A stretch of 64,000 nt of DNA from Paraburkholderia sp. Tr-20389. Its GTDB lineage: Bacteria > Pseudomonadota > Gammaproteobacteria > Burkholderiales > Burkholderiaceae. Location: positions 1-64,000 of the forward strand of contig NZ_JAAGPD010000053.1 of the NCBI RefSeq assembly GCF_017104565.1. Direction: 5' to 3'. The first letter of the stretch is position 1. Every line of letters begins with the position of its first letter. Positions 27,195 through 41,351 of this stretch are shown piece after piece. The notes below the pieces were generated by a model that was not told the DNA's origin, did no database searches, and saw only the letters and a list, made by a program, of their open reading frames with translations. The translations under genes and the position numbers were made by a program.

Positions 27195-28476
27195 CGTCGC
27201 TATCGGAAGCGGCGTCGTTGACGATGTCGGCCGCGCCGCCCGTGTCGCGCTCGATCTCCATGCTGCCGATCAGCTCGCGCCAATCCGCCGACGGGTTCTG
27301 CTCCAGCACCGCCAGGAAATTGATGAACGCGGTGATCGTCGTGCGCGGCGTGCGGAAGTACGCTTCGCCGAGCCGCGTCGCACAATGCGCCATGAACGCG
27401 GGGATCGCCTCCTCGGGCACGAGCGTCTTGCTCGCATCGCCGAATGCGTACACGAGGCGCAGCTTGTCGAGCAGCACGTAGAAATCTTCCGGCGTGAGCG
27501 CGGCGAGCCGGATCACAGGGCCGCTATAGTCGACGAGGCCGTTGGTCGCGAACGCGTTTTCCGCGAGCCGCGACTGCAGCGCCGCATAGCTGTAGAGACC
27601 GCGCCGTGTGTCGAGCAGAAACTCGGGCGTGCCGCCCAGCACGAAGCCGAGCCCTTCCGCGGTGCCTTGCAGCGAGTCGTTCAGGATACGCAGGATCTGT
27701 TCGTAGTTCGCGTTGCGGGCCTGCAGGTTGGCGAGCTTGTACAGGTTCACCATTTCGTCGAGGCACACCATCAGGCCGCTGTAGCCCGCGAGCCGCACGA
27801 AGCGGCCGAGCAGCTTCAGCTGGTCGTACATGTTCGCGTCGTCGACGATGGTGCGCACGCCGAGCGCCTGGCGCGCGTCGGTACGTGTCGAGAACTCGCC
27901 GCGCAGCCAGCGCACCGCATCGCTCTTGAGCTTCTCGTTGCCTTCTTCGAAGCCTTTGCAGTAAGCGGCGATCACGTCGGCGAAATCGTAGCCGTTGACC
28001 ATCTCCGTCAGTTGCGAGAGCTGCGCGCGAATCACCTCGTCGCTGCTGCGGCCCGTCGCCTTCGCTTCCGTCTTCGCCTGGCCGATGAACTTCTCGACCA
28101 CGCCCGCGAGTGCGCCGCCTTCGGGCTTGGTGCGCGTCGCCATGTTCTTGACGAGTTCCGCGTACAGCGAACGCGCCTGGCCGCCCGACGCGTGCAGACG
28201 CCGGTCCGGATTCAGGTCGCCATGCACGGTGACAAGCTTTTTCTCGAGCGCGATTGCGCGCACGAGGTTCAGGAAGAAGGTCTTGCCCGCGCCGTACTCG
28301 CCGACGACGATGCGAAACGCCGAGCCGCCGTCCGCGACGCGCTCGATGTCCTTCAGCAGCGCTTCGAGTTCGCGCGCGCGCCCGACCTGGATCAGATGTT
28401 GCCCGATGCGCGGCACGACGCCGGCACGCAGGGATTGCAGGACCGCGTCGCGGTCCCTGGGGCGAATCGTTGTCAT
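27166..28476 (-). CDS. sngB: BrxD-like P-loop ATPase (DUF2791), Shango component
   Basis: This 436-residue ATPase has Walker A GEYGAGKT at residues 59-66 and Walker B LMVCLDE at 235-241, followed by a conserved NLYKLANLQARNANYEQIL helix. This arrangement matches the BREX-associated ATP-binding protein family that includes BrxD. The ATG at 28476 overlaps the TerB gene stop as ATGA, and reading upstream of it lies inside that gene. The C-terminus is acidic (DSDDELASF). In its operon it probably couples ATP hydrolysis to assembly or loading of the helicase encoded downstream. It has no methyltransferase or PglZ neighbour, so this is not a BREX locus. Confidence 0.87.
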   Translation of the reverse strand: MTTIRPRDRDAVLQSLRAGVVPRIGQHLIQVGRARELEALLKDIERVADGGSAFRIVVGEYGAGKTFFLNLVRAIALEKKLVTVHGDLNPDRRLHASGGQARSLYAELVKNMATRTKPEGGALAGVVEKFIGQAKTEAKATGRSSDEVIRAQLSQLTEMVNGYDFADVIAAYCKGFEEGNEKLKSDAVRWLRGEFSTRTDARQALGVRTIVDDANMYDQLKLLGRFVRLAGYSGLMVCLDEMVNLYKLANLQARNANYEQILRILNDSLQGTAEGLGFVLGGTPEFLLDTRRGLYSYAALQSRLAENAFATNGLVDYSGPVIRLAALTPEDFYVLLDKLRLVYAFGDASKTLVPEEAIPAFMAHCATRLGEAYFRTPRTTITAFINFLAVLEQNPSADWRELIGSMEIERDTGGAADIVNDAASDSDDELASFRLN

Positions 28477-30794
28477 GCAGCCAACCTTTGTGCGACTTCC
28501 TGATTGATTTCGACGGGATCGTCTCCGTCCGTGAGCGGTTCGTCCCAACGGTCGAGCGACGCCTCGTTCACCTGTTCGATCGCGCCGTCGAGCATCAGTT
28601 CGAGATGCGACGCGGCATCGGCGAGTTCGGCGCGCGTCCACGATGCGCGCGTAACGAGCAGACGCAGGAACGACGAGTGCGGGTCGTCGAGGCCCAGCAG
28701 CGGCGCTTCGTTTGCGTCAGATGTTTGCAGTGTTTCCGGCGCGGGCATTGGCGTCGGTTGCTCGTCATGTGCCGCCGGCATCGCCTCTGCCGGTCCTGCA
28801 AGCACGTGCTGTTCCCCGGCGGTATCCGGCGCGCCCGGCTGCGCTGCGTGAGCGTGCGGCATCGCATGGGGCACATGCGCGTCCTCGACGAACACGTCGG
28901 CCAGCATCGACGAAACACGCGCCGTCTCTTCCTTGAGCGCGGCGATTCGCGTCGCGTCGAGCACGAACTCATGCTTCGGCGCGGCGGCCCTGGGCGCGTC
29001 GGCGGCGTGCTTCTTCGACGGCTTCGTGCCGCCATGCGCCGGCGTTGCGGGCGCGCCGCTCGCATGCTGATGCAGATCGGTGTACAGGCGCTGCGGATCG
29101 ATGCCCAGCATCCGGTACACCTTTTCGAGCAGGCGCACTTCGTCGCGCGATACGGCACCGTCGGCATTCGCCGTATGTACGAGGAACGACGCGATCGTCG
29201 CCTTCACGTCCTGCGACAGCGGTGAGAGCTTCTTCTTCAGCCCCGCGCTCGCCGTCGGCTGCGTGAGTTGCACGAGATTACGCGCTTTCAGCCGCCTGCG
29301 CTGTTCGTCCGACAGATGCGGCCACTGGTCGATCTGCCATTCGATCACGGCCGTCTCGCGCTGCGTCGCGTCGCCGTCCGCACGCGCGACGGTCGCGGCC
29401 AGATCGACGATGATCGTCGCGACCTCGTACGCGTCGTCGACGGACAGCGGGTTCGCACCCGGCTCGATGCCGAACAGCGCAACGGCATCCGTCGGCTTCG
29501 GCGTGCGCGCGCCGAGGCGCACGTCCGGTTCGACGGCAATGCCCGCTTCCGCGAGCGCCGTCGTGAACACGACCGCCTTGTCGCGGGTCATCTTGCCGCC
29601 CGAGCGGAAGCGCGCCAGCAGCGTGCCGAACGTGCTGACGGCCGTCGCGCCGGCGATTTCGCCGGCCAGCGCATCGATGGCGTCGTGCGTCGCCTGCGGC
29701 CACATCGTGGGCGGCAGCGTCAGCGTGGCTTCGAGCGTGCCCTGCGCCTCCGGATAGCGGCCGAGGTAGCGGCTGTACGCATCGAGCGCGGCGGCGCTTT
29801 CGTGCATCAGCAACTGCAGCTTGTTGCGCGTGCCGTTGACGGCGGCGATATCGGGCAAGCCGACCAGAAAGCCCGGCACGGGCACGCTCTTCAGCGCGCG
29901 GAACGACGGTTGCGGCGACGCGTCGAGCTTCGTGCGGTTCGCGGGAAGCAGCATGCCGGCGCCGAACCGGTCGCGATACTGCCGCGTGAACACCCGGTCG
30001 AATTCTTCCGGACACCGCGCGACGGCCGTGCGCCGCACCATCATCGGATCGAGCTTGACCCACGCGAGCGCCCAGTCGGCGGGCAGCGGATGCTGGTCGA
30101 GCGCCGCCTGGCCGAACGCGACGCGCACGTTCAGCGGCACCTGATAACCCGTCGCGAGTCCGTCGGGCGCGGCTTGCAAATACATGCGCGTGTGCCGCGA
30201 CGCCATCAGCGACAGCGCGTCGATCAGCGCGCGCACATGCTTTTGCCAGCCATAGTTCGCGTCGAGATTGATCAGGCGCCGCAGTTCCTTCGCGATCGCA
30301 TCGAATTCGTCGCCGCTGACCTTGCCCGCCGCGCCGTCGACGAGAACCCGCCGTTCGAGGCCGTACAGATAGAAAAACAGATACCCGGTGTTGATGTCCG
30401 ATTTCTTCCGGTCGGACGCGAGCCATTCGAGATATGTGCGCCGCTGTTCAGGCGAGAAACCGCCATAGCTGAGCGCCACGCTGTCCAGTCCGGCCGACGG
30501 ATTTGCGCCGTCGCGCGCGACGTCGAAGCGCGCGTCGATCACGCAGGCATCGATCGAATCGGCATGCGAGCGCTGCACGTCGCCCGTATAGAAGAAGCCT
30601 CCCGACACGTCGAGGCCGTGGATATCGACGCTTTCGCCGGGCGTGACCCAGCGCGCGGACACTCGCGCGGGCGAACGCACATCAGGCCGCGCGCCGGCGG
30701 ACGCGGGGCTGATGCGGTAGGCGTCGGCGGTAGCGCCCGCCATGCTTATCGATACCAACGGCTCGTCGTCGTATGAGCCGGAAGAACTTGTCAT
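28473..30794 (-). CDS. sngA: TerB_N/TerB-domain protein, Shango component
   Basis: This 773-residue protein begins with a TerB_N-type region (about residues 50-260: DVSGGFFYTGD, YGGFSPEQRRTYLEWLASDR, TGYLFFYLYGLERRVL) followed by a large alpha-helical middle part. A TerB-like domain sits near residues 480-590 (AATVARADGDATQRE, TANADGAVSRDEVRLLEKVY). An Ala/Pro/His-rich linker (about 600-700) leads to an acidic TerB_C-like tail. TerB domains occur in tellurite/stress and phage-defence gene clusters and may bind metal. It is the first gene of the operon; the ATG at 30794 has GGAGC upstream. Its function in defence, perhaps sensing, is inferred. Confidence 0.85.
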   Translation of the reverse strand: MTSSSGSYDDEPLVSISMAGATADAYRISPASAGARPDVRSPARVSARWVTPGESVDIHGLDVSGGFFYTGDVQRSHADSIDACVIDARFDVARDGANPSAGLDSVALSYGGFSPEQRRTYLEWLASDRKKSDINTGYLFFYLYGLERRVLVDGAAGKVSGDEFDAIAKELRRLINLDANYGWQKHVRALIDALSLMASRHTRMYLQAAPDGLATGYQVPLNVRVAFGQAALDQHPLPADWALAWVKLDPMMVRRTAVARCPEEFDRVFTRQYRDRFGAGMLLPANRTKLDASPQPSFRALKSVPVPGFLVGLPDIAAVNGTRNKLQLLMHESAAALDAYSRYLGRYPEAQGTLEATLTLPPTMWPQATHDAIDALAGEIAGATAVSTFGTLLARFRSGGKMTRDKAVVFTTALAEAGIAVEPDVRLGARTPKPTDAVALFGIEPGANPLSVDDAYEVATIIVDLAATVARADGDATQRETAVIEWQIDQWPHLSDEQRRRLKARNLVQLTQPTASAGLKKKLSPLSQDVKATIASFLVHTANADGAVSRDEVRLLEKVYRMLGIDPQRLYTDLHQHASGAPATPAHGGTKPSKKHAADAPRAAAPKHEFVLDATRIAALKEETARVSSMLADVFVEDAHVPHAMPHAHAAQPGAPDTAGEQHVLAGPAEAMPAAHDEQPTPMPAPETLQTSDANEAPLLGLDDPHSSFLRLLVTRASWTRAELADAASHLELMLDGAIEQVNEASLDRWDEPLTDGDDPVEINQEVAQRLAA

Positions 30795-31407: not shown

Positions 31408-32550
31408 TCAAGCGTCAGATTTTTCGCACCGTCTCTCAGGTTCTGGACGGCCCTCGGAATGCCAGAACCTATTCACGCCAGCGCAAGCTGGCGTCTTTTT
31501 GTGCGCTGACTCGTGGGATGACTCGTGGGCTGCCTTATGAGGGGCTGCCTTGTGAGCCGACAGAAAGGTTACGTTCTGTCCCGCAGCGCCCGTACCTTGC
31601 ACGCCTTGCACAGTTTGCGCGCCCTGCGTCGCTTGCGCCGCTACTGCCGGCGCGACGACCAGCGTCAAACGACGGCGCCGGACCGTCGCGTAGGTTGCGA
31701 GTGCGAGGCCGCACCAGATCAGGCCATAACCCGTCAGGTCGATTGCCGTCAGCCGCTCATGGAAGACCGTGAGCGCGAGCACGAAGGTCACCGTCGGCGT
31801 CACGTATTGCATCACGGCCGACTCCGTCAGCGACACCAGCGGCATCGCGTACGCGTACAGCGCGAGCGGCACCACCGTCAGCGGCCCCGCCATCATCATC
31901 AGCACCGACGCATCGATGCCGTACGACGTGAACGCGAGCGTATGGTGCGACGTCAGATAGCCGAAGTAGCCGAGCGCGAACGGCATCATCACGACCGTCT
32001 CGCGCCACGTGCTGACGATCGCATTGCGGGTCGGCCACACTTTGCGCGCCAGGCCCAGCAACGAGAACGTCACCGTCAGCATCACGGCGAACACGGGCAC
32101 GCCGCCGTGCGCATAACACTGGACGAAAGTGCCCGCCAATCCGAGCGCAAGCGCCGCCGCTTTCAGACCATTGAGCCGCTCATTCAGAAAAACGATGCCG
32201 AGCGCCGCCGACAGGAGCGGGTTCAGGAAGTAGCCGAGACTCGCCTGCAGCGCATTGCCCGTCACCGACGCGAGGATATACACGACCCAGTTCGCCGACA
32301 GCAGCACGGCGGGCACCAGCGCGAGCGCGAACGAGCGCCAGTCGCCCATTTGCTGCCGCAACGCGGGCTTGAGCGCAATCACAGCGGACAGCACTGCGAA
32401 CGACCAGAACACGCGGTGCGCGAGCATCTCCGGCGCGCTCACTTCCTTCAGATGCCAGTAGTACAACGGCATCAGGCCCCACCAGCACAGCGCCACGAGC
32501 AGCGCAGCGTAGCCGGCGCCCTCCTTCTGCTTCTGATTGTTTGCATTCAT
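31408..32550 (-). CDS. rarD: RarD-like EamA transporter, presumed exporter of the peptide cluster
   Basis: The first 300 or so residues are a ten-helix drug/metabolite transporter of the RarD type: ALCWWGLMPLYYWHL, EMLAHRVFWSF, LLSANWVVYIL and LGYFLNPLLSAALGIVFLNE. RarD family members are permeases of unknown or chloramphenicol-related substrate. The ATG at 32550 overlaps the aminotransferase stop as ATGA, so it belongs to the peptide-enzyme operon and may export its product. Residues after about 300 form an 80-residue low-complexity tail unlike RarD, and its coding DNA contains hairpins and short tandem repeats; the tail may be read-through after loss of an earlier stop. Confidence 0.82.
   Translation of the reverse strand: MNANNQKQKEGAGYAALLVALCWWGLMPLYYWHLKEVSAPEMLAHRVFWSFAVLSAVIALKPALRQQMGDWRSFALALVPAVLLSANWVVYILASVTGNALQASLGYFLNPLLSAALGIVFLNERLNGLKAAALALGLAGTFVQCYAHGGVPVFAVMLTVTFSLLGLARKVWPTRNAIVSTWRETVVMMPFALGYFGYLTSHHTLAFTSYGIDASVLMMMAGPLTVVPLALYAYAMPLVSLTESAVMQYVTPTVTFVLALTVFHERLTAIDLTGYGLIWCGLALATYATVRRRRLTLVVAPAVAAQATQGAQTVQGVQGTGAAGQNVTFLSAHKAAPHKAAHESSHESAHKKTPACAGVNRFWHSEGRPEPERRCEKSDA
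31475..31500 (+). terminator. Terminator-like hairpin overlapping the rarD 3' end
   Basis: An 8-bp stem (31475-31482 with 31487-31494, GCAA loop) is followed by CTTTTT on the plus strand. A second inverted repeat, AGGTTCTGG with CCAGAACCT (31439-31447 and 31463-31471), lies just before it. The orientation is against rarD, so this may end an antisense or unannotated rightward transcript. Confidence 0.5.
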
Positions 32551-33857
32551 GGCTGTAGCGCCTCGTCGAGTCGGTCGATCAGAACTTCCACTTCATCCAC
32601 GCCAAAAATCAGCGGCGGCGACAGGCGCAGCGAATCCGGTGCAGCCGAATTCGGCATGGCCAGCACGCCACCGTCGATCAGATCAAGCCACACGTCGGTC
32701 ATGCTTCTGCCGGGTTGTGCCGCGAATTCCGCGTCAAGCGCGAGGCTGAGCGCGAGGCCCTTGCCGCTCACCGTCACGCGGCCGCCGAAACGCGCCGCGA
32801 TGCGCGCTTCGATCAGCGCGCCTATCGCCGCCGCGTTGTCGACGAGCCGCCCGCTTTCGACGAGATCCAGCACGATCAGCCCGCAGTGCATCGCGAGGCG
32901 GTTCCCGCCGAACGTCGAGCCCTGCACTTTCGCCTTGCCGGGCGCGCCGAACACAGCATCGAAGTCAGCGTCGTTGAGCAGTACCGCCGACAGCGGCACG
33001 AGTCCGCCCGTCAAGCCTTTCGATACGACGATCATGTCGGGCGCCGCCGACGCGTCCCGCATGCCGATCGCGTCGATGCCGAACCAGGTGCCCGTGCGGC
33101 CGAGCCCGCAATAGACTTCATCGGCGATCAGCTTCGTTCCCGTCGCGCGGCACAGCGCGGCGAGCCGCGCCGACGTGTCCGCGTTCCAGTGCTGCGCCGA
33201 CGACGATCCCGCGACAGGTTCGAACACGACGGCGGCAACCTTGCGGCTCGCCAGCAAGTCTTCGAGCGCGGCGAAGTTGTGCGCGTCGACGTGATGGACG
33301 TTGCCCGGCTTCCACGGCAACGCCTCGGTCCAGAACGGATTGCCCGTCATGAACGACGAAAACATCGACAGGCCGTGAAACGCGTCGCGAAACGCGACGA
33401 CGTCCGGCCGCCCGGTGCCCGTCATCGCGAACTTCACTGCGCTTTCGACCGCCTCGGCACCCGTGGTCGCGAAGAACACTTTCTGGAAACGCTTGCCTGA
33501 GAGCGCGATCAGTTTGTCGGCAAGCAGGCGCTGCAACTCGGCGCATTCGAACGGAAACACGTTCACCGACGTCTGCTGCAATGCGTCGGCGAAACGCGCA
33601 AGCAGCGACCCATGCGCATGCCCGAGATTCGCGGTGCCGAAGCCCGCGAGACAGTCGAGCAACGTGCGGCCGTCCGCCGTTTCGATGTAACAGCCGTCGC
33701 CGCGCGCGCCCGTCATATCGAGGCCCGCTTCGTCGAGAAACTGCGCCCACCAGGGGTTCACGGAATCGAAGCGCGCTGCCTCGTTCGCCGCGCGCTCGAC
33801 ACCGACGTCAGGCTCGATCTCAGACTTCAAGCGGCCTCCTGCCTTCGTGCAGTCCAT
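32547..33857 (-). CDS. PLP-dependent class III aminotransferase of the peptide cluster
   Basis: This 436-residue enzyme belongs to the acetylornithine/GABA aminotransferase class. Seen in sequence are ETADGRTLLDCLAGFGTANLGH, the cofactor-phosphate region ATTGAEAVESA, the Asp-containing LIADEVYCGLGRTG, and the Schiff-base lysine in VVSKGLTGG. It transfers an amino group between an amine or omega-amino acid and a keto acid. The ATG at 33857 overlaps the preceding metalloenzyme gene by 38 bp, and its stop overlaps rarD by 4 bp. It may act on an aldehyde or ketone that the oxygenases generate on a Lys side chain of the peptide, or on a free precursor; both are inference. Confidence 0.88.
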   Translation of the reverse strand: MDCTKAGGRLKSEIEPDVGVERAANEAARFDSVNPWWAQFLDEAGLDMTGARGDGCYIETADGRTLLDCLAGFGTANLGHAHGSLLARFADALQQTSVNVFPFECAELQRLLADKLIALSGKRFQKVFFATTGAEAVESAVKFAMTGTGRPDVVAFRDAFHGLSMFSSFMTGNPFWTEALPWKPGNVHHVDAHNFAALEDLLASRKVAAVVFEPVAGSSSAQHWNADTSARLAALCRATGTKLIADEVYCGLGRTGTWFGIDAIGMRDASAAPDMIVVSKGLTGGLVPLSAVLLNDADFDAVFGAPGKAKVQGSTFGGNRLAMHCGLIVLDLVESGRLVDNAAAIGALIEARIAARFGGRVTVSGKGLALSLALDAEFAAQPGRSMTDVWLDLIDGGVLAMPNSAAPDSLRLSPPLIFGVDEVEVLIDRLDEALQP

Positions 33858-35316
33858 GAAACTGGAGTTGCTTTTGATCGCCGTAGAAGAACGCGACCGA
33901 TTCGAGTTGGCGCATGTTCACTTCGAGCATGAACAGCGCCGCTTCGAGGCTGTAGCGCTGTTCCTCGGCCGTGACATGCGGAATGTCGGCGAGGAAGAGA
34001 CGCGACAGGCTCGGATGATTCAGTTCGTCGTTCGTCTCGCCGTGCTTTGCAACGATGTCGCCCGCATGCAGCGCACGCTCGACGAGTGCGGCGATGTGCT
34101 CATGCACGGGACTGTGCTGGTCGCGCAGGCCTTCCGTGACCATGATCGACGTGAAGAACGCAGTGGGCAGACGATGCGCGAGCACCGTGTACGCGTCGAT
34201 ATAAAGCGCGGTGAGCGGCAGCGGCACCGAAGCGCACACGTCGGCTTCGTTCATGCCGAGCGCGACGCACGTCGCGAGTTCGAATGCTTCGTGGCCGTAC
34301 TCTTCCAGGAAGTACTGAAAGAGCCGCGCGCGCAGAGTGCGTTTGAGGCGGCGCGACAGCAGCGGTCCGAGAATTTCGACGAAGCGGTCGGTGACGTGAT
34401 ATTGCTCGATGTACAGGCCTTTCACGAGCGGCGTAATCGCGTCGCTCGCGAGTGCCGCCGATGCATAGACGTTGCTGCCGAGACCGTCGAGCGCCTTGAG
34501 CAGCAGACGCTCGGCGCGCGCGGCGAGCGCGAGGCCGCTGCACGGCTCGCTCAGCGTGTCCGTCGACGCCGACGTGACGCGGCGGCCGACACGCAGCGGC
34601 GCGATCTCGATGAAATGCGCAAACGACAGCAGGTACATCTGCAGATCGGTCGGATCGAGCGAGGCGATGCTGTGGACACCGTCGTGCGATACGTCTTTCG
34701 CGATCGCGGTGTGGGGATGCCAGCGCACATGCGTGAACACTTCGGCCAGCACGCTTTGCCACGCGATCAGCAGTTCCGGCGCGTTGCGGCGTGCATACGC
34801 CAGCTGGAAATACAGCGCCTGCAGCGCGAAATTATTTGCGAGCGGGCCGTGATGGTCGTCCGAAAACGGAAACACTGCCTGCTCGTGGACTTGCGCTTGA
34901 TCCGTCAGCATCGTGTGCACGACGGCGAGCACCTCCTTGTACATCGCAAGACGCTTCGCGACGACACGTGCGAGCCGCTGCCCGACTTCCACGCACAACG
35001 CGAGCGCGCGTTCCGCTTCGGACGTCACGCTGTCGACCCCGCTGTCCGTCTCTTCGATCAGCGAGAGCGCATCCAGTTGCACCGTCAACGCGCGAATCCA
35101 CGCGGGACATTCGCCTTCGTTCAGCCTGATCCAGATGTCGGATGAAGGCCGCATCAGCTGCTCAATGACGTCGGCCACTTCGTCACGCGCGACGCCTTCG
35201 AACGACAGGTCGATCGCATCGTCGCCGATGCCGATCGTCAACACCGCGTCGCCTGACGACACCTCGCACGGCACCAGCGCCGGCCGTCTGTATCGATCGA
35301 TATCCCAGCGTTCCAT
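33820..35316 (-). CDS. Heme-oxygenase-like metalloenzyme with RRE-like N-terminus (third, long)
   Basis: This 498-residue protein is the third of three related enzymes. Residues about 12-90 look like a PqqD-type peptide-recognition domain (strand AVLTIGIGDDAIDLSF, helices DEVADVIEQL and WIRALTVQLDALSLIEE). An extra alpha-helical part spans 95-290. The catalytic part has the heme-oxygenase-like diiron ligand order: E304 in YIEQYH, E339-x-x-H342 in EEYGHE, and H425...D430...H434 in KHGETNDELNH. Such enzymes (PqqC, BesC, UndA, SznF relatives) use O2 for oxidation or C-C cleavage. The ATG at 35316 lies 8 bp after the second enzyme. An in-frame extension to 36213 lies inside that gene. Confidence 0.78.
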   Translation of the reverse strand: MERWDIDRYRRPALVPCEVSSGDAVLTIGIGDDAIDLSFEGVARDEVADVIEQLMRPSSDIWIRLNEGECPAWIRALTVQLDALSLIEETDSGVDSVTSEAERALALCVEVGQRLARVVAKRLAMYKEVLAVVHTMLTDQAQVHEQAVFPFSDDHHGPLANNFALQALYFQLAYARRNAPELLIAWQSVLAEVFTHVRWHPHTAIAKDVSHDGVHSIASLDPTDLQMYLLSFAHFIEIAPLRVGRRVTSASTDTLSEPCSGLALAARAERLLLKALDGLGSNVYASAALASDAITPLVKGLYIEQYHVTDRFVEILGPLLSRRLKRTLRARLFQYFLEEYGHEAFELATCVALGMNEADVCASVPLPLTALYIDAYTVLAHRLPTAFFTSIMVTEGLRDQHSPVHEHIAALVERALHAGDIVAKHGETNDELNHPSLSRLFLADIPHVTAEEQRYSLEAALFMLEVNMRQLESVAFFYGDQKQLQFHGLHEGRRPLEV

Positions 35317-35324
35317 GACCGTTC

Positions 35325-36323
35325 TCAGGCAAAGATGCGCGGTTTGACGACGGGCTGCTTGCCGTAGAAATCGAGAATCTGGTTCTCCTGCAGCACCATG
35401 GTTTCGATCGCGAGCATCACGTGCTTCTTGACCGTCATCTGCTCTTCCGGCGACACGGCTTCGATTTCGGACAGCAGGCTGAGCGAGATGTCTTCGTGAT
35501 CGAACTCGTCGTTGATCGTCGCGTGACGGGCGATCGGGCGCCAGAAGCCCTCCGGGATGCCCGTCCCGCGGCAATAGTTCGCCAGTTCGATATGAAAGCT
35601 CACGCTCGGCTGCTCGAACAGGAACAGCAGCGACTTGAAGCTCAATGGATGCTGGCGCGCATATACGCCCAACGACGCGCACAGCGCGAACGTGGCGGGC
35701 AACGGCACCAGATCGTCGAGGTTGTCGGTGCGAATGGAGACGGCGTGCAACGACTGCCGCAGCATGTCGTCGTGATTCAGTTCCGAGGCGAGAAAGCCTT
35801 GCAGCAACTTCTGCACCTTGACGGGGCCGGCATGCGTAAGCGCGGGTGCGATCAGCCCCGGCGCCTCGCGCACGATATAGAAGTATTCGAGCGCATAGCC
35901 GATCAGCGCGCTCTTCGGCAGCGTGCGGTCGCACAGCCCCTGATAGAGACGCGATTTCGACTTCGCGGCGATCGTCTCCGAAGCGAACTTCCTGAGCCGG
36001 TGATAGAACTCCTCGCCGGACAGACAGCCTTGCGGCTCGGGAAACGCGCTCTCCGTCAGAAGGCCGAGCCTGTCGAATTCCTCGATCAGCCCGTCGATTT
36101 CCTGCGCGAGTTCTGTGTGGCGGCGTTTCAGTTCCGGAATCGACGTGTCGCCGCGCCTGAGCGATTCGACGAACGCCTTGAGCGCGCCCCGCTTGTCGGC
36201 AATCACCGAGCACGATTGCTCGCGATAGTCGACGGTCAGGCCATTGTCTTCTTCCGTCAGCTGGACGCCGGGGCGAAAGCGCGGCGCGGCGAAAAGATCG
36301 GCGGCTGTCGTGACTTGCATCAT
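35325..36323 (-). CDS. Heme-oxygenase-like iron-containing redox enzyme with RRE-like N-terminus (second)
   Basis: This 332-residue protein has residues 16-90 resembling PqqD or the RiPP recognition element: FRPGVQLTEEDNGLTVDY as strands, LKAFVESLRRGD as helix, IPELKRRH, and EIDGLIEEFDRLGLL as the final helix. The C-terminal domain carries ligand candidates E146, E181-x-x-H184 (SELNHDD) and H267...D272...H276 (HATINDEFDH), the pattern of heme-oxygenase-like diiron oxidases. The ATG at 36323 overlaps the stop of the first enzyme as ATGA. A direct PQQ pathway role is unlikely because no pqq genes are present. Substrate: probably the 48-residue peptide, by inference. Confidence 0.8.
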   Translation of the reverse strand: MMQVTTAADLFAAPRFRPGVQLTEEDNGLTVDYREQSCSVIADKRGALKAFVESLRRGDTSIPELKRRHTELAQEIDGLIEEFDRLGLLTESAFPEPQGCLSGEEFYHRLRKFASETIAAKSKSRLYQGLCDRTLPKSALIGYALEYFYIVREAPGLIAPALTHAGPVKVQKLLQGFLASELNHDDMLRQSLHAVSIRTDNLDDLVPLPATFALCASLGVYARQHPLSFKSLLFLFEQPSVSFHIELANYCRGTGIPEGFWRPIARHATINDEFDHEDISLSLLSEIEAVSPEEQMTVKKHVMLAIETMVLQENQILDFYGKQPVVKPRIFA

Positions 36324-37306
36324 GCGTCTCCGCTGACGTCGAGCTGACGCAACAGCGTCGGCGACGTCGAATAGTGTTCCCAGATACCCGTGTAGAACTG
36401 GTCGTACAGTTCGATGAACAGATGCGTCTGCGCGCGCAGACGGCGCACGTCCGAATCCGGGATGGCGGGAATCCGCGAAAAGATCTTGCGCGTGAGGCTG
36501 CCGTGCCCGCCGTTCAGGTTGATGTCGGAATGGGCCTTCACGGGCTTGAGCAGCGCGGGATCGACGCCGATCCGATAGGCGGCATCGAGAAAAGAGTCCT
36601 GCTTGATGTCCTTGCCTTCGAGTATGCCGAGCGTCGAAAAGAAGAACAGCGGATCGCTATGCGCCCAGAACGCGAGCGCGTTGCACAGCGCCATGGTCTG
36701 CGGCAGCGGCACGGTGCGCGCGAGATCTTCGCGCGTCACGCCCAGCGTGTTCAGCGCCTTGAGCAGCAGTTCGTCGTGACCGTACTCTTCCGCGTAGAAC
36801 TCGTTCATCGCGAGCCGCACGCCCGTATTGGCGACGTACGACAGAACCGGCGCGTCGAAGTAGCTTTCGCGGAACAGGAAATGGTAGTTCTCCACGATCA
36901 TCCCGTGGATCACATTGAGCGGAATGTCTTCGCGCGTGCTCGCGGACGCGCACTTCTCCCAGAACACGTTCGTATAGAGCGTGCGGTACAGCAGTTCGTT
37001 GGCGAGATCTTCGAGTTCGAGCAGCACGTCGAGGCCGCTGCGCGCCAGCGCGGGCTTGACCGCGCGCACCAGTTGCAGCTCCTTCAGACGGTCGAACAGT
37101 TTCTGTTCGTACGGCGAGTAGCGGGCCAGCACTTCTTCGGCCTTGACGCCCGAGCGCAGCGCGCTGATCAGCGACGCCGCATCTTCACCGTCGACGGACG
37201 CCGGAAATTCGTATTGATGCTCGTCGTCTTCGATGACGAGCGAAGGCGACGTGCTGAGACACTTTCCCGCCAGCACGAACGCCTGTGGTTCAAAAATGTC
37301 GTCCAT
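36320..37306 (-). CDS. Heme-oxygenase-like metalloenzyme with RRE-like N-terminus (first)
   Basis: This 328-residue protein begins with about 85 residues of PqqD-like pattern (LVIEDDEHQYEFP strands, SLISALRSGVKAEEVLARYS, KLFDRLKELQLV). The heme-oxygenase-like part has E139 in VENYHFLF, E174-x-x-H177 in EEYGHDE, and H259, D261 and H268 in AHSDINLNGGH as metal-ligand candidates. The last group is spaced differently from its two paralogues, so activity may differ. The ATG at 37306 has GGAGG nine bases upstream; the GTG directly before it (37309) is an alternative start. It follows the small peptide gene by 49 bp across a hairpin. Confidence 0.78.
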   Translation of the reverse strand: MDDIFEPQAFVLAGKCLSTSPSLVIEDDEHQYEFPASVDGEDAASLISALRSGVKAEEVLARYSPYEQKLFDRLKELQLVRAVKPALARSGLDVLLELEDLANELLYRTLYTNVFWEKCASASTREDIPLNVIHGMIVENYHFLFRESYFDAPVLSYVANTGVRLAMNEFYAEEYGHDELLLKALNTLGVTREDLARTVPLPQTMALCNALAFWAHSDPLFFFSTLGILEGKDIKQDSFLDAAYRIGVDPALLKPVKAHSDINLNGGHGSLTRKIFSRIPAIPDSDVRRLRAQTHLFIELYDQFYTGIWEHYSTSPTLLRQLDVSGDA

Positions 37307-37326
37307 CACGACAGCCTCCGTTCGTG

Positions 37327-37348
37327 GCCGGCACGCGACGGTGCCGGC
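37327..37348 (-). other. Hairpin between the peptide gene and the first enzyme gene
   Basis: GCCGGCAC (37327-37334) and GTGCCGGC (37341-37348) form a perfect 8-bp stem with a 6-base loop. No T-run follows on the minus strand. Such stem-loops after a precursor-peptide gene usually protect its mRNA or reduce read-through, giving excess peptide over enzymes. Confidence 0.65.
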
Positions 37349-37355
37349 TGGTCGA

Positions 37356-37502
37356 TTACAGGTGAACCGGAATGAGCACGGGCCGGGCTTTGCGCGGCTT
37401 GACCACGACCGTGATCTTTTTCTCGTCCTGCCGGTCCGTCTGCGACTGGGCTTGCGATTGCTGTTGGGGCTGCACTTGCTGAACCTGCGTTTGGGTCGTC
37501 AT
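37356..37502 (-). CDS. 48-residue putative RiPP precursor peptide
   Basis: This small gene is preceded by a near-consensus AAGGAG ribosome binding site seven bases before its ATG. The peptide has a Gln/Thr/Ser-rich first half (about residues 3-22), an acidic-basic hinge DRQDEKK (23-29), and a hydrophobic-basic C-terminal part ITVVVKPRKARPVLIPVHL. There is no Cys, Trp or aromatic residue; Lys, Arg, Pro and His are the reactive candidates in the C-terminal part. It is the first gene of an operon with three enzymes bearing PqqD-like peptide-recognition regions, followed by an aminotransferase and an exporter. Being a modified peptide precursor is inference from size, position and context. A scaffold or regulatory peptide is an alternative. 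Confidence 0.65.
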   Translation of the reverse strand: MTTQTQVQQVQPQQQSQAQSQTDRQDEKKITVVVKPRKARPVLIPVHL

Positions 37503-38263
37503 TTCAAATCTCCTTGGGTTAGCGTTCAATCTGCACTGCTTAACAAGCTGTCCACCAATGTGGCCAGTTCTTTCACGCCCGGAGCCAGAAACCCGAAGCC
37601 GTGCGGCGGGCAGCATCGCCGCGCCAATGGCGGCGGACGATGAGCGCAACAGGCTTGAAAATGTAGCCCCGTTCTCCGTCGTGGATCCGGCACCGGTCGC
37701 GGCTTCTCGGTCCGTTCCGGTGCAGTCAGACGCATGTGTTGTTTATCGACCGGTTCATTAACCCGGTTTTCAGCACGTTGCCGCGCTGTGGCCGAACAGG
37801 CGTGCCCGAGTGTCGCACTGACGCCGCAGCCAGACGCACTCGACACGCAAAACGGGCGCTCCCGCCAAGGGGAGCGCGCCTGAAGGTCGATCTGGTCTGG
37901 GCGGTCGGGTCGGATTCTCGTGGTTGGCCGCCGTTCGTTGTTTCTCTCAGGTTCCGTCTGCTGCTGTTCTCTCAGGTTCTGCTGCGCCGTATCTTTTTTG
38001 CACGGCCTCGGAAATTCTCTCGGTACAGTTCCGGTTTTGCACAATCAGTTAAAGTGTTCGCTCGTTTTCACCGCCGTTCGACGAATTCGTCAAATGTTAA
38101 ATAACTTACTGATTTAACACGATTTTCGGTCGAAAATTCATGCAAACAAACTAACTCGTTGGACCTATTGTTCCGGTAAACTGCGATAACTGGAATGAAC
38201 ACTTTCGATCAATTTGCGCGAAGTGTTCGGCGAACTTGCTCGAACACTTTGACCGGGAGGCGA
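37503..38263. promoter_or_regulatory. Divergent control region between peptide operon and MocR regulator
   Basis: No gene is credible in this 760-bp region. It holds four copies of a 9-10-bp motif related to AAAGTGTTCG: 38051-38060 and 38221-38229 on the plus strand, 38197-38207 and 38241-38250 on the minus strand. Two AT-rich palindromes lie between them: TGTTAAAT/ATTTAACA (38095-38102, 38112-38119) and ATTTTCG/CGAAAAT (38122-38128, 38131-38137). A GC hairpin GCGCTCCC/GGGAGCGC (37856-37863, 37869-37876) followed by CCCGTTTTG on the minus strand could be a leader attenuator of the peptide operon. Confidence 0.6.
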
Positions 38264-39670
38264 ATGAAGATCACCCTCGACGTCGCAACGGCCACCCCGC
38301 TGACGGAACAGATCGTCGGTCAGGTCGAAGCGCTGATCCTGTCGCGCGAATTGCGCGTAGGCATGCGCCTGCCGTCCATCCGCAAGTTCGCGGCCGAGCA
38401 CAACATCAGCCGCTTCCCCGTCATCGAGGCCTACGACCGGCTCGCCACACGCGGCCTGCTCCAGCCCAAGCACGGCTCCGGCTATTACGTCGCCGAACAG
38501 TTCGAAAAAGCGCCGCGCGCCACGCGCGGGCTCGACGCGATTCGCGCGACGCCCGAGTCCGATCAGATCCTGCGGCAATTCGAGCGCCCCGACGAGGTGC
38601 TGAACCTGTCGATCGGCTTCATCCCCGAAGCATGGCGCGACGTCGAAGGCATCGCGCAGGCGATTCGCCAGGCCTCGCGCACGGACGCGCGCAGCCTGAT
38701 CGACTACGCGATTCCACAAGGCGACCCGGTGCTGCGGCTGCAGATCGAACAGCGCCTCGCCTTCGTCGGCGTCGCCGCGGAACCGCAAAACATCATGGTC
38801 ACGAACAGCGCGAGCGAGGCGCTCGACCTCGTCGTACGGATGCTGCTCAAGCCCGGCGACACGGTGTTCGTCGAAGATCCCGGGTATTTCAACCTGTTTG
38901 GGCTGCTCAAGCTGCAAGGCATCGAACTGGTCGGCGTGCCGCGCCTGTCGACGGGACCCGATGTCGACGCCGTCGAGGCGCTGCTGAAAGAGCATCGGCC
39001 GAAGCTATTTTTCGTCAACACCGTCTTTCACAACCCGACGGGCACGAACGTCGCGCCGCACGTCGGCTTCCGGCTGCTGCAGCTCGCGCAGGAACACGAC
39101 TTCATGATCGTCGAGGACGACGTGTACGCGGATTTCCAGGCAATCCCGACGCAGCGCCTCGCGTCGCTCGACCGGCTGACGCGAGTCGTGTATATCGGCG
39201 GATTTTCAAAGAGCCTGTCGTCGTCGCTGCGGCTCGGCTACATCGCCGCGGAAGCGGGACTGATCAAGCACTTCGTCGAAGTGAAGGCGCTCACGAGCCT
39301 CGGCGGCACGCGTTTCAGCGAGCGCGTCGTCGCGGCGCTGCTCGAACGCGGCACCTACCGCAAGCATCTGGAGCGGTTGCGGCGGCGCGTGAACGGCGCG
39401 ATTTCGACGGCCGTGGAACTGCTCGCCGAGATCGGCTGGCAGGTGTTCGACGAGCCGTGCGGCGGCACGCTCGTGTGGGCGCGTGTGCCCGGCGTGCCGA
39501 ATTCGGATGTGTTCGTCGCCGAGGCGGCGCGGGCCGGCATCACGGTGCAGCCCGGCAGCTACTACCGGCCGCATGGCGAGCCGACGCCGTGGGTCCGCTT
39601 CAATACCGCGTATCTCGACAACGAGCGCGCGATGGGATTCTTGCGGCGCGCGGCGGCCATGGGCGATTGA
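38264..39670 (+). CDS. MocR-type regulator (GntR HTH fused to aminotransferase domain)
   Basis: This 468-residue protein has an N-terminal GntR winged HTH (about 1-80: PLTEQIVGQVEALILSRELR, LPSIRKFAAEHNISRFPVIEAYDRL) and a fold type I aminotransferase domain with the PLP lysine in IGGFSKSLSSSLRLGY. Other cofactor-site elements are NSASEALDL, NTVFHNPTGTN and VEDDVYADF. MocR proteins are PLP-responsive regulators that typically control an adjacent gene set by binding direct repeats. The ATG at 38264 has GGGAGG just upstream. It is divergent from the peptide-enzyme operon, so that operon, which includes a PLP enzyme, is the likely target. Autoregulation through the repeats next to its start is also likely. 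Confidence 0.88.
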   Translation: MKITLDVATATPLTEQIVGQVEALILSRELRVGMRLPSIRKFAAEHNISRFPVIEAYDRLATRGLLQPKHGSGYYVAEQFEKAPRATRGLDAIRATPESDQILRQFERPDEVLNLSIGFIPEAWRDVEGIAQAIRQASRTDARSLIDYAIPQGDPVLRLQIEQRLAFVGVAAEPQNIMVTNSASEALDLVVRMLLKPGDTVFVEDPGYFNLFGLLKLQGIELVGVPRLSTGPDVDAVEALLKEHRPKLFFVNTVFHNPTGTNVAPHVGFRLLQLAQEHDFMIVEDDVYADFQAIPTQRLASLDRLTRVVYIGGFSKSLSSSLRLGYIAAEAGLIKHFVEVKALTSLGGTRFSERVVAALLERGTYRKHLERLRRRVNGAISTAVELLAEIGWQVFDEPCGGTLVWARVPGVPNSDVFVAEAARAGITVQPGSYYRPHGEPTPWVRFNTAYLDNERAMGFLRRAAAMGD

Positions 39671-39749: not shown

Positions 39750-40454
39750 TCAGCCGCCCTGCTGTTGCTGAAGCCTTCCGCGCGCTTCGCCGAGGCTCTC
39801 GAAGCGGTCGTCGTCCTCGTTGAACACGGCGATGCGCCCGTGCCCGATGTCGTAGACCCAGCCCTGCACGTCGAGCCGTTTTTGCGCGAGCCTTCCCGCG
39901 ACGGACGGATGCGTGCGCAGGTGCATCAGTTGCAGCCGGATATTTTCTTCGACGAGCGCCTGCACCAGATGCTCGCTGTCGACCTTGCGCGCCTGCACGA
40001 CGCTGCGCGCGGTCTCGGCATTGCGCAGCCACGCGTTGACGGTCGGCATGTCTTCCGCGGTCATCGGCGCCGTGCCGGCGAGGCCGCGCATCGCGCCGCA
40101 GTCGCTGTGGCCGCAGATCACGATCTGCCGCACGTTGAGCGCGAGCACCGCATACTCGACGACAGCCGATACGCCGCCCAGCATCTCGCCGTAAGCCGGG
40201 ACGATATTACCGATATTGCGGCACACGAACAGTTCGCCCGGATGCGTTTGCGTAATCATTTCCGGCGACACGCGCGAATCGGCGCACGTGATAAACAGCG
40301 TGTGCGGCGCCTGTCCCTGGGCGAGACTTTCGAACAAGGCTTGCGTGGCGGGAAACACCTCGTCGCTGAACTGCTCGACGCCGTCCAGCAGATGCAGCAG
40401 GTCCGACTTCGCGGGGTCGCGAAGCCGCCTGGTGTTGAGCATATCGTCCGACAT
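39750..40454 (-). CDS. can: Beta-class carbonic anhydrase
   Basis: This 234-residue zinc enzyme interconverts CO2 and bicarbonate. The zinc ligands are visible as Cys in TCADSRVSPEM and His and Cys in GHSDCGAMRG, with the catalytic Asp-Arg pair in ADSR. VCRNIGNIVPAYG and GGVSAVVEYAV are further beta-class hallmarks. The start is ATG 40454 with GGGGGA upstream; in-frame reading to 40679 has no ribosome binding site. It is convergent with the MocR gene and alone in its transcript. The long C-terminal tail ends in a Gln-rich QQQQGG. A cytoplasmic housekeeping role is most likely. Confidence 0.92.
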   Translation of the reverse strand: MSDDMLNTRRLRDPAKSDLLHLLDGVEQFSDEVFPATQALFESLAQGQAPHTLFITCADSRVSPEMITQTHPGELFVCRNIGNIVPAYGEMLGGVSAVVEYAVLALNVRQIVICGHSDCGAMRGLAGTAPMTAEDMPTVNAWLRNAETARSVVQARKVDSEHLVQALVEENIRLQLMHLRTHPSVAGRLAQKRLDVQGWVYDIGHGRIAVFNEDDDRFESLGEARGRLQQQQGG

Positions 40455-40883
40455 GGAGCTGTCCCCCTTCGCAGCGCTTCTGGATGATGGATGAGGGAGT
40501 GTACGACGGGAATGCGGCAGCGGGCAGGTCACGTTCTCGCCGCAAAAGCTGAACGCGATGAGAGAAGGCCATAAAAGAAGCCCCGGCCGGACGTGATCGG
40601 AGCGGCGCGGGGCTCGACAAAAAGCTCGCCTGTTCTCAAGAGGCAGCCTCACGTTACGCGCGTCAAAAAAACGGAGCAATCGAAAAAAACCCCGGTTGCC
40701 GGGTGCGGCGACCGGGGGAAGCTCTCTCGCGCGCGAAGGGAACCACCGCGCACGACAGTCACTTTACTGATTCGCGGGTCGGGGATTAACCCATCGCGGG
40801 GAAACACTCCTTTCCAGCGCGCACAAGCAAAGCAAACGCAGGGCAAAACACGCGCGTCTTCCGGGCCCGGCCTGCCGAAGGCA
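40455..40883. other. Intergenic region between carbonic anhydrase and Fur-family gene
   Basis: This 430-bp gap is read through from the right by the Fur-family transcript, which ends at the hairpin near 40700. The part 40455-40680 should contain the promoter of the carbonic anhydrase gene. No further gene or repeat was recognised. Confidence 0.4.
40683..40718 (-). terminator. Rho-independent terminator of the Fur-family gene
   Basis: CCCCGGT (40690-40696) pairs with ACCGGGG (40711-40717), extended by inner G-C pairs. On the minus strand it is followed by seven T. It is oriented to end the leftward transcript from the Fur-family gene. Confidence 0.85.
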
Positions 40884-41351
40884 TCACTTCGCACGCGGCC
40901 TCGGCGGATGCGCGCGCGCCGCGCATTCGGCACACACACCCTGCAATGCCAGCGTCTTGCCGACAAAGCGTTTACCGAACTTTTTCGCAATGGCGATACG
41001 CCGCCGGTTGATCGTCGGGTCGGAGAACTCTTCGACCCGGCCGCACACGACGCACACGAGGTGATCGTGCGCCTTGCCCCTGTTCCATTCGTAGAGGCTG
41101 TGATGCTTGCCGAGCGGCACGATCGCGACGAAGCCCGCCTCCACCAGCTGACCGAGCACGCGGTACGTGGTCGACAGATTCATCCGCTCGCCGCCCGCGA
41201 CGATACGCCGGTGAATGTCCTCCGCGCTGAAATGGCCGTGCTCCGCGTGCTGCAGATGGTCGAGCACGGCGGCCTGCGCGGCCGTGCCGAGCAGGCCGGC
41301 GCGCTTGAGCGCATCGAGTGACGAGAGGGGTGACGATGAACGAGGCGGCAT
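40884..41351 (-). CDS. Fur-family metal-responsive repressor
   Basis: This 155-residue protein has the Fur layout: a winged HTH (about 20-90, HFSAEDIHRRI and MNLSTTYRVLGQLVEAGFV) and a dimerisation domain with the histidine-rich site KAHDHLVCVVCGRVEEF and a second CxxC in VCAECAA. The two CxxC pairs indicate a structural zinc site. The extended, basic C-terminus and missing HHHDH motif separate it from housekeeping Fur; it could be a Fur2, PerR or Zur paralogue. A 24-bp palindrome 98 bp upstream is a likely autoregulatory operator. It is followed by a strong terminator, so it is monocistronic. Confidence 0.85.
   Translation of the reverse strand: MPPRSSSPLSSLDALKRAGLLGTAAQAAVLDHLQHAEHGHFSAEDIHRRIVAGGERMNLSTTYRVLGQLVEAGFVAIVPLGKHHSLYEWNRGKAHDHLVCVVCGRVEEFSDPTINRRRIAIAKKFGKRFVGKTLALQGVCAECAARAHPPRPRAK

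Follow-up and report, generated by a model that had tools for sequence, protein, structure and literature searches.

Heme-oxygenase-like diiron enzymes (HDOs) are described as forming alkene, alkyne, nitrile and N-oxygenated groups, in the examples given mostly on small molecules. Among them, the acetylenase MboA of mangotoxin biosynthesis desaturates the C-terminal residue of a tripeptide, the carboxylate of which ligates Fe1, and its authors note the same carboxylate-on-iron binding for the substrates of AetD, UndA, HrmI and PolF (PMC13185094). VarO, an HDO in the biosynthesis of thiovarsolin, a ribosomally synthesized and post-translationally modified peptide (RiPP), is proposed to dehydrogenate a side chain, its authors leaving undecided whether this precedes or follows proteolysis (PMC6511847); an HDO review cites VarO's paper for the modification of ribosomal peptides by HDOs. 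Here we describe an operon in a 64,000-nt stretch of Paraburkholderia sp. Tr-20389 (positions 1 to 64,000, hereafter the window; source genome 9.0 Mb), which encodes a 48-residue precursor-like peptide and three enzymes, HDO1, HDO2 and HDO3, that each join an N-terminal domain resembling a RiPP recognition element (RRE) to an HDO domain. It is likely a RiPP-type biosynthetic operon, in which these RRE-HDO enzymes oxidise the C-terminus of the peptide.

The literature comparison draws on PMC13185094, PMC13108848, PMC6511847, PMC12710340 and PMC7470986. The ligands of MboA, E86xxH89, E143 and H172xxxD176xxxxH181 with D90 as an alternative (PMC13185094), are spaced as in HDO1-3, in which Asp176 is replaced by Asn; the sequence match (E 0.0014 to HDO1, 0.014 to HDO2) covers only the HDO part, over the 250-residue chain of MboA. 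The mangotoxin tripeptide is built by ATP-grasp ligases and MboA has a reductase partner, MboB (PMC13185094), neither of which is found among the operon proteins here, and the thiovarsolin pathway, with YcaO/TfuA and a repeat precursor (PMC6511847), is likewise unlike this locus. A Pfam scan of seven operon-region proteins found neither an ATP-grasp domain of the mangotoxin type nor YcaO or TfuA.

PqqC acts on a small molecule and precedes PqqD in the natural fusion of the two, the daptide aminotransferase acts at a C-terminus, and the RRE of PbtF belongs to an enzyme of another kind. The PqqC-PqqD fusion (PDB 5vrd) likewise joins a heme-oxygenase-like enzyme to a peptide-binding RRE and differs in that Pfam PqqD finds no match here. 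The PbtF RRE, from a thiopeptide-type pathway (PDB 8T19), is the best solved match of the N-terminal domain, which at this locus is joined to an HDO, and the daptide enzyme (NCBIfam NF041821) is, like the aminotransferase of the operon, a class III enzyme in a peptide pathway, although the latter, at 183.1 bits, stays below the cut-off of 450. By sequence, HDO2 is closest to CADD (E 1.7e-4), described as self-sacrificing in that it spends its own tyrosine. No description of such an RRE-HDO/peptide system was found in the open-access literature, among the matches listed, and of two RRE papers searched by term, neither contains "heme oxygenase", while "haem" occurs once, in a reference title. 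An RRE-HDO system with a small precursor is apparently undescribed; it was already known that one HDO takes part in RiPP biosynthesis (VarO) and that another acts on a peptide C-terminus (MboA).

The precursor-like peptide

An earlier reading of the window (the original prediction) had placed here a small gene with a strong ribosome binding site, three related enzymes, an aminotransferase, an EamA exporter and a MocR regulator, all of which were confirmed, with their positions, by sequence and Pfam. The operon runs on the minus strand in the order 48-aa open reading frame (ORF), HDO1, HDO2, HDO3, class III aminotransferase, RarD/EamA transporter, with the MocR gene divergent (Table 1). Going by HDO2, the source genome has its closest named relatives in Paraburkholderia/Burkholderia sp., with identities of 84-91%.

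A short ORF ending in -HL lies upstream of HDO1 in all 28 HDO1 loci inspected, which bears out the expectation that the peptide gene accompanies the enzymes in other genomes. These loci, not all independent, comprise 19 from the same genus, 5 from Sphingomonas, 1 from a sister genus (L060) and 3 from Robbsia, Tistrella and Rhodococcus, the last belonging to another phylum. Within the genus, an HDO1 match of any strength occurs in 21 of 145 genomes and a strong one (E below 1e-100) in 19, every one of which (19/19) carries the ORF; G144 and G059 were excluded from the ORF count for their weak HDO1 matches, that of G059 being also partial. Seven more loci (L004-L010) show the ORF and were left uncounted because they apparently come from the same genomes as counted ones.

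The peptides share little besides their ends. The tail of the window peptide, PVLIPVHL, recurs as PxLIx[VI]HL in all peptides except that of Rhodococcus, at total lengths of 27-60 aa, and the tail is the sole part of the peptide common to all lineages. In the five Sphingomonas loci, four of them identical, a 59-60 aa ORF has a different body and ends in ...PTLIAIHL; ORFs of this type also occur in L034, a same-genus genome, and in L060. The ORF is 27-28 aa long in Robbsia and in loci L032 and L033, 55 aa in Tistrella, where it ends in ...KPVLIAVHL, and 17 aa in Rhodococcus (MTITKKKRTIVAVAVHL). The suggestion that Lys or Arg residues are the target finds no support in this comparison: the lineages have a C-terminal -[VI]HL in common, and peptides of the Sphingomonas type lack the KPRxxRP cluster.

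Selection was examined on 26 loci of the 48-aa type, in which the same genomes are repeated and 13 distinct DNA versions occur. Codons 31-48 show zero amino-acid changes and synonymous variation at 14 of 18 codons, from which it follows that the tail is selected as protein; the uncorrected ratio of nonsynonymous to synonymous polymorphism (pN/pS) falls from 0.16 over codons 1-22 to 0.10 over codons 23-48. With this purifying selection, and with the tail recurring before HDO1 at every inspected HDO1 locus, the peptide ORF is more than a chance reading frame.

Core and accessory genes across lineages

The precursor-like ORF and the RRE-like/HDO fusions stay together beyond the genus and even across a phylum boundary, in agreement with the RiPP-like set originally proposed. 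HDO1-3 are all present in Sphingomonas, Tistrella, L034 and L060, and Tistrella has HDO1 and HDO2 fused, with a thiamine-pyrophosphate-enzyme gene between the ORF and HDO1. Rhodococcus has HDO1 and HDO2 only, followed by MFS and GNAT genes; three HDOs are thus usual and not universal. The earlier remark that no described pathway with three such fusions is known agrees with the literature found.

The aminotransferase is accessory, because it is missing in several lineages: no gene like that of the window was found within 10 kb on either side in Sphingomonas, within 8 kb on either side in Rhodococcus, or in the stretches of Tistrella, L034 and L060. Relatives at 36-38% identity follow HDO3 in Robbsia, L032 and L033, where an EamA protein is also present (by Pfam in Robbsia, by a 29% match in L032, by eye in L033). 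Both aminotransferase and exporter lie outside the core that is conserved most widely. A GNAT gene comes next in Robbsia and Rhodococcus (Pfam), in L032 (by its match to the Rhodococcus protein) and in L033 (by eye); the Rhodococcus GNAT matches its Robbsia and L032 counterparts at 30% (E 2e-14 and 2e-13). A MocR gene occupies the same place in L004-L010, L036, Robbsia and L032; the stretches covered for L033, L034, L060 and the Sphingomonas loci gave no match to it. The best solved matches of the aminotransferase are 4ppm, which we take to be PigE, an acetylornithine aminotransferase and an omega-transaminase, and its match to the NCBIfam model of PigE stays below the cut-off (213 bits against 850).

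In two same-genus genomes the operon looks decayed. In G107 (L036), one of the 19 genomes counted above, HDO1 is interrupted by a stop, while the matches to HDO2 and to the aminotransferase each fall into two pieces; in G144 (L035), HDO2 is kept, HDO3 is broken, transposase-like ORFs lie nearby (by eye), and a 9-kb stretch yielded neither the ORF nor HDO1.

The RRE-like N-terminal domains

The best model of the HDO1 N-terminus shows four short strands (residues 10-13, 16-19, 24-27 and 32-35) and then three helices (45-53, 57-63 and 66-77), at a model confidence (pLDDT) of 67-87 for residues 11-80. Three strands followed by three helices (bbb-aaa) is the order given as defining RREs, and the HDO1 domain shows it with one short strand beyond the definition; the same order appears for HDO3 in a low-confidence model only. 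When two distant members are added to the HDO1 set, hhalign gives 86-95% for the pairs among the three N-termini, and with the 11 HDO1 members alone HDO1-HDO2 gives 56% and HDO1-HDO3 89%; by these profiles the three N-termini are homologous to each other.

Against solved structures, a profile of 12 N-terminal sequences has the PbtF RRE as its top match (E 2.3e-5), followed by winged helix-turn-helix (wHTH) domains of DnrK-type O-methyltransferases from E 2.2e-4, regulators, and LynD at 0.58. Single N-termini match wHTH families of Pfam (NPRL3 HTH at 3e-7 and HTH_47 at 9.5e-5, two members each). Against PqqD, hhalign reaches at most 27% for any set; Pfam PqqD (PF05402) matches 0/11, 0/11 and 0/10 full-length family members of HDO1, HDO2 and HDO3, and 0/12 N-terminal pieces with E values as high as 10 admitted. 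The domain is firmly a winged helix and, given the predicted order in HDO1, the homology of the three N-termini and the PbtF match, likely an RRE. Of the PqqD-like character first ascribed to it, the RRE-like part is retained on these same grounds; by sequence it is not PqqD proper.

The HDO domains and their metal site

That the C-terminal domains are heme-oxygenase-like was correctly recognised: the helical fold follows from matches to solved structures for HDO1 and HDO2, and for HDO3 from profile homology to HDO1 and from Pfam, where Haem_oxygenas_2 scores 35.4, 27.8 and 29.0 bits for HDO1, HDO2 and HDO3 against a cut-off of 28.9, HDO2 falling just below. The H-D-H order of ligands given at the time has to be amended, since the Asp is an invariant Asn and the pattern reads ExxH...E...HxxxNxxxxH. 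Aligned to MboA, the positions are E175xxH178(D179), E231 and H260xxxN264xxxxH269 in HDO1 and E181xxH184(D185), E237 and H267xxxN271xxxxH276 in HDO2; profile alignment with HDO1 places them at E339xxH342(E343), E395 and H425xxxN429xxxxH434 in HDO3. All are invariant within the three family alignments. Five of the six metal positions agree with MboA, and the sixth is Asn, not Asp, throughout the HDO1-3 families, the superfamily site consisting of three His and three carboxylates; a distant relative, P0009, retains the Asp. The site of HDO1 is taken from sequence and not from the model, because the stretch around E175 and H178 has a pLDDT below 50.

HDO3 carries about 165 additional residues between its two domains. 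This region looks weakly heme-oxygenase-like in a poor model and is perhaps a second, metal-free copy.

Proposed mechanism and alternatives

From the genes, the operon, the HDO homology, the conserved ligand positions, the conserved peptide with its tail and the co-occurrence, all computed directly, we infer binding of the peptide by the RRE-like domains, its oxidation with a site and an order, an aminotransferase step, export and regulation. In the model that we favour, the RRE-like N-termini of HDO1, HDO2 and HDO3 would hold the upstream part of the 48-aa precursor, while the invariant tail would be fed into their dimetal sites for O2-dependent oxidation at the final Leu, at the His before it or at both, the terminal carboxylate probably lying on iron by analogy with MboA. 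The three enzymes (or two in Rhodococcus, and with the fusion in Tistrella) would perform successive oxidations at one site or at neighbouring sites, and two or three of these could yield a dehydro-, hydroxy- or carbonyl-bearing tail. In the Paraburkholderia/Robbsia branch, the aminotransferase would then turn a tail carbonyl into an amine, the EamA transporter would export the product and MocR would regulate. An MboA-like logic with a ribosomal substrate is suggested because a conserved C-terminus, a variable body, an RRE-like domain and an HDO domain fit together in it. The peptide is very probably the substrate of the HDOs, and the chances are about even that the modification falls within its last two residues. 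That the aminotransferase acts on a peptide-derived carbonyl, as originally proposed, is possible yet rather unlikely for an accessory enzyme.

A variant of this model makes the peptide a carrier, the modified C-terminal residue or residues of which are cleaved off as a small antimetabolite. The candidate exporters belong to small-molecule families (EamA/RarD, MFS), and the GNAT genes of Robbsia, Rhodococcus, L032 and L033 would be expected if a free amine needs acetylation, whereas none was recognised by eye beside the window operon. The peptide can be as short as 17 aa, or 15 aa in a distant relative with an M14-annotated metallopeptidase gene in its cluster, but no peptidase was found among the seven window operon proteins scanned. 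We give this variant a real, if less than even, chance.

The peptide could instead be a small partner of the enzymes, not secreted, with its C-terminus oxidised to a built-in cofactor much as CADD uses its own tyrosine. The self-sacrificing CADD is, after all, the best match of HDO2, the conserved part of the peptide is its C-terminus, and the scanned operon proteins include no protease; the presence of exporter candidates, and the lack of a cofactor-using enzyme directly after HDO3 in two mapped Sphingomonas stretches, make this unlikely. Still less probable is that the winged helices bind DNA or merely aid dimerisation, with the HDOs leaving the peptide untouched: wHTH domains of O-methyltransferases and ArsR-type regulators match nearly as well as PbtF, but the enzymes strictly co-occur with the ORF and the bbb-aaa order is that of RREs.

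Hairpins follow the small ORF in several loci, strongly in Robbsia (z -6.96) and Rhodococcus (z -5.24) and with a T-rich stretch behind in Enterobacter, while that of the window is no stronger than shuffled sequence (z -0.68, equalled by 49/200 shuffles). Attenuation by the ORF, with the HDOs acting on a free small molecule, is nevertheless highly improbable, given the tail conserved as protein across two phyla, strong purifying selection on the peptide, no run of one regulatory codon, RRE-like domains on the enzymes and terminators in the window not above chance (1 site against 1.8 expected).

Table 1. Features of the operon region, in positions of the window
Feature	Position	Strand	Basis or remark
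Small precursor-like gene	37356..37502	-	48 aa, MTTQTQV...KKITVVVKPRKARPVLIPVHL
AAGGAG ribosome binding site before the ATG of the small gene	37510..37515	-	sequence
Short hairpin (GCCGGCAC...GTGCCGGC) directly 3' of the small gene	37327..37348	-	no stronger than shuffled sequence
HDO1, RRE-like N-terminus and HDO domain	36320..37309	-	GTG start, ATG is the next codon
RRE-like domain of HDO1, residues ~8-88	37046..37288	-	structure model, profile comparison
HDO2, RRE-like N-terminus and HDO domain	35325..36323	-	Pfam, profile comparison
HDO3, RRE-like N-terminus, extra region and HDO domain	33820..35316	-	Pfam, profile comparison
Class III aminotransferase, accessory	32547..33857	-	Pfam Aminotran_3
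RarD/EamA family transporter, accessory exporter candidate	31408..32550	-	Pfam EamA; TIGR00688 (144.6 bits, cut-off 130.15)
MocR-type regulator, divergent from the operon	38195..39670	+	Pfam GntR and aminotransferase I/II

HDO1 and HDO2, HDO3 and the aminotransferase, and the aminotransferase and the EamA gene overlap, and 8 bases separate HDO2 from HDO3. Near the operon, and ordinary-looking by eye, are genes for a large TerB-like protein (28473-30794), a carbonic anhydrase (39750-40679) and a Fur-type regulator (40884-41351).

More distant RRE-HDO genes

In L061, from another genus of the family, a distant RRE-HDO gene stands behind a 16-aa ORF (MRIKRSKRVCLMNDGL) preceded by AAGGAG. An RRE-HDO-like gene on an Enterobacter plasmid (L019/L094), which matches that of L061 across both domains at 29%, stands behind a 15-aa ORF (MKVTRRVIPVMNARL) flanked by AAGGAG on its 5' side and by a hairpin (z -3.38) on its 3' side; the cluster also holds a second HDO, an aminotransferase, an MFS protein, a nucleotidyltransferase and the M14-annotated protein, which matches DUF2817 in Pfam and, weakly, AstE/AspA. 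On Rhizobium etli p42f, an RRE-HDO gene follows an annotated 67-aa ORF ending in -LMCG, a relative of which, 68 aa long and ending in FMTMCG, is divergent, at 6186-7746 of L060, from a fourth, distant RRE-HDO gene that adjoins the HDO1-3 operon and keeps the Asp at the MboA D176 position. Because these short ORFs were sought in the space preceding the enzyme gene, any single one could be chance. The R. etli/L060 pair has in its favour a likeness, judged by eye, between two genomes; for the ORFs of 15 and 16 aa, only the ribosome binding site and the position speak.

Taken together, distant RRE-HDO genes beside short ORFs with other tails are sequence evidence hinting at a wider class. We put forward, tentatively and with more doubt than conviction, that RRE-HDO enzymes with very short precursors form an undescribed RiPP class of Proteobacteria and Actinobacteria, with tails -VHL, -NDGL, -NARL and -MCG, in which the peptide, in some cases of 15-17 residues, would be a carrier; its C-terminal residue would undergo repeated oxidation at the dimetal sites, and its subsequent release or capping would give a small antimetabolite.

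Implications

Gene annotation is prone to overlook such short precursor ORFs: those of 27, 17 and 15 aa, from the Robbsia, Rhodococcus and Enterobacter plasmids, are absent from the displayed (incomplete) gene tables. An RRE-HDO gene beside an ORF of 15-70 aa offers a search handle for the possibly wider class. The system provides a directly testable precursor and, in the peptide and two HDOs of Rhodococcus, a small natural set. If the favoured model is true, HDOs with their own peptide-binding domain would act on an encoded tail, and difficult O2 chemistry would become programmable by gene sequence.
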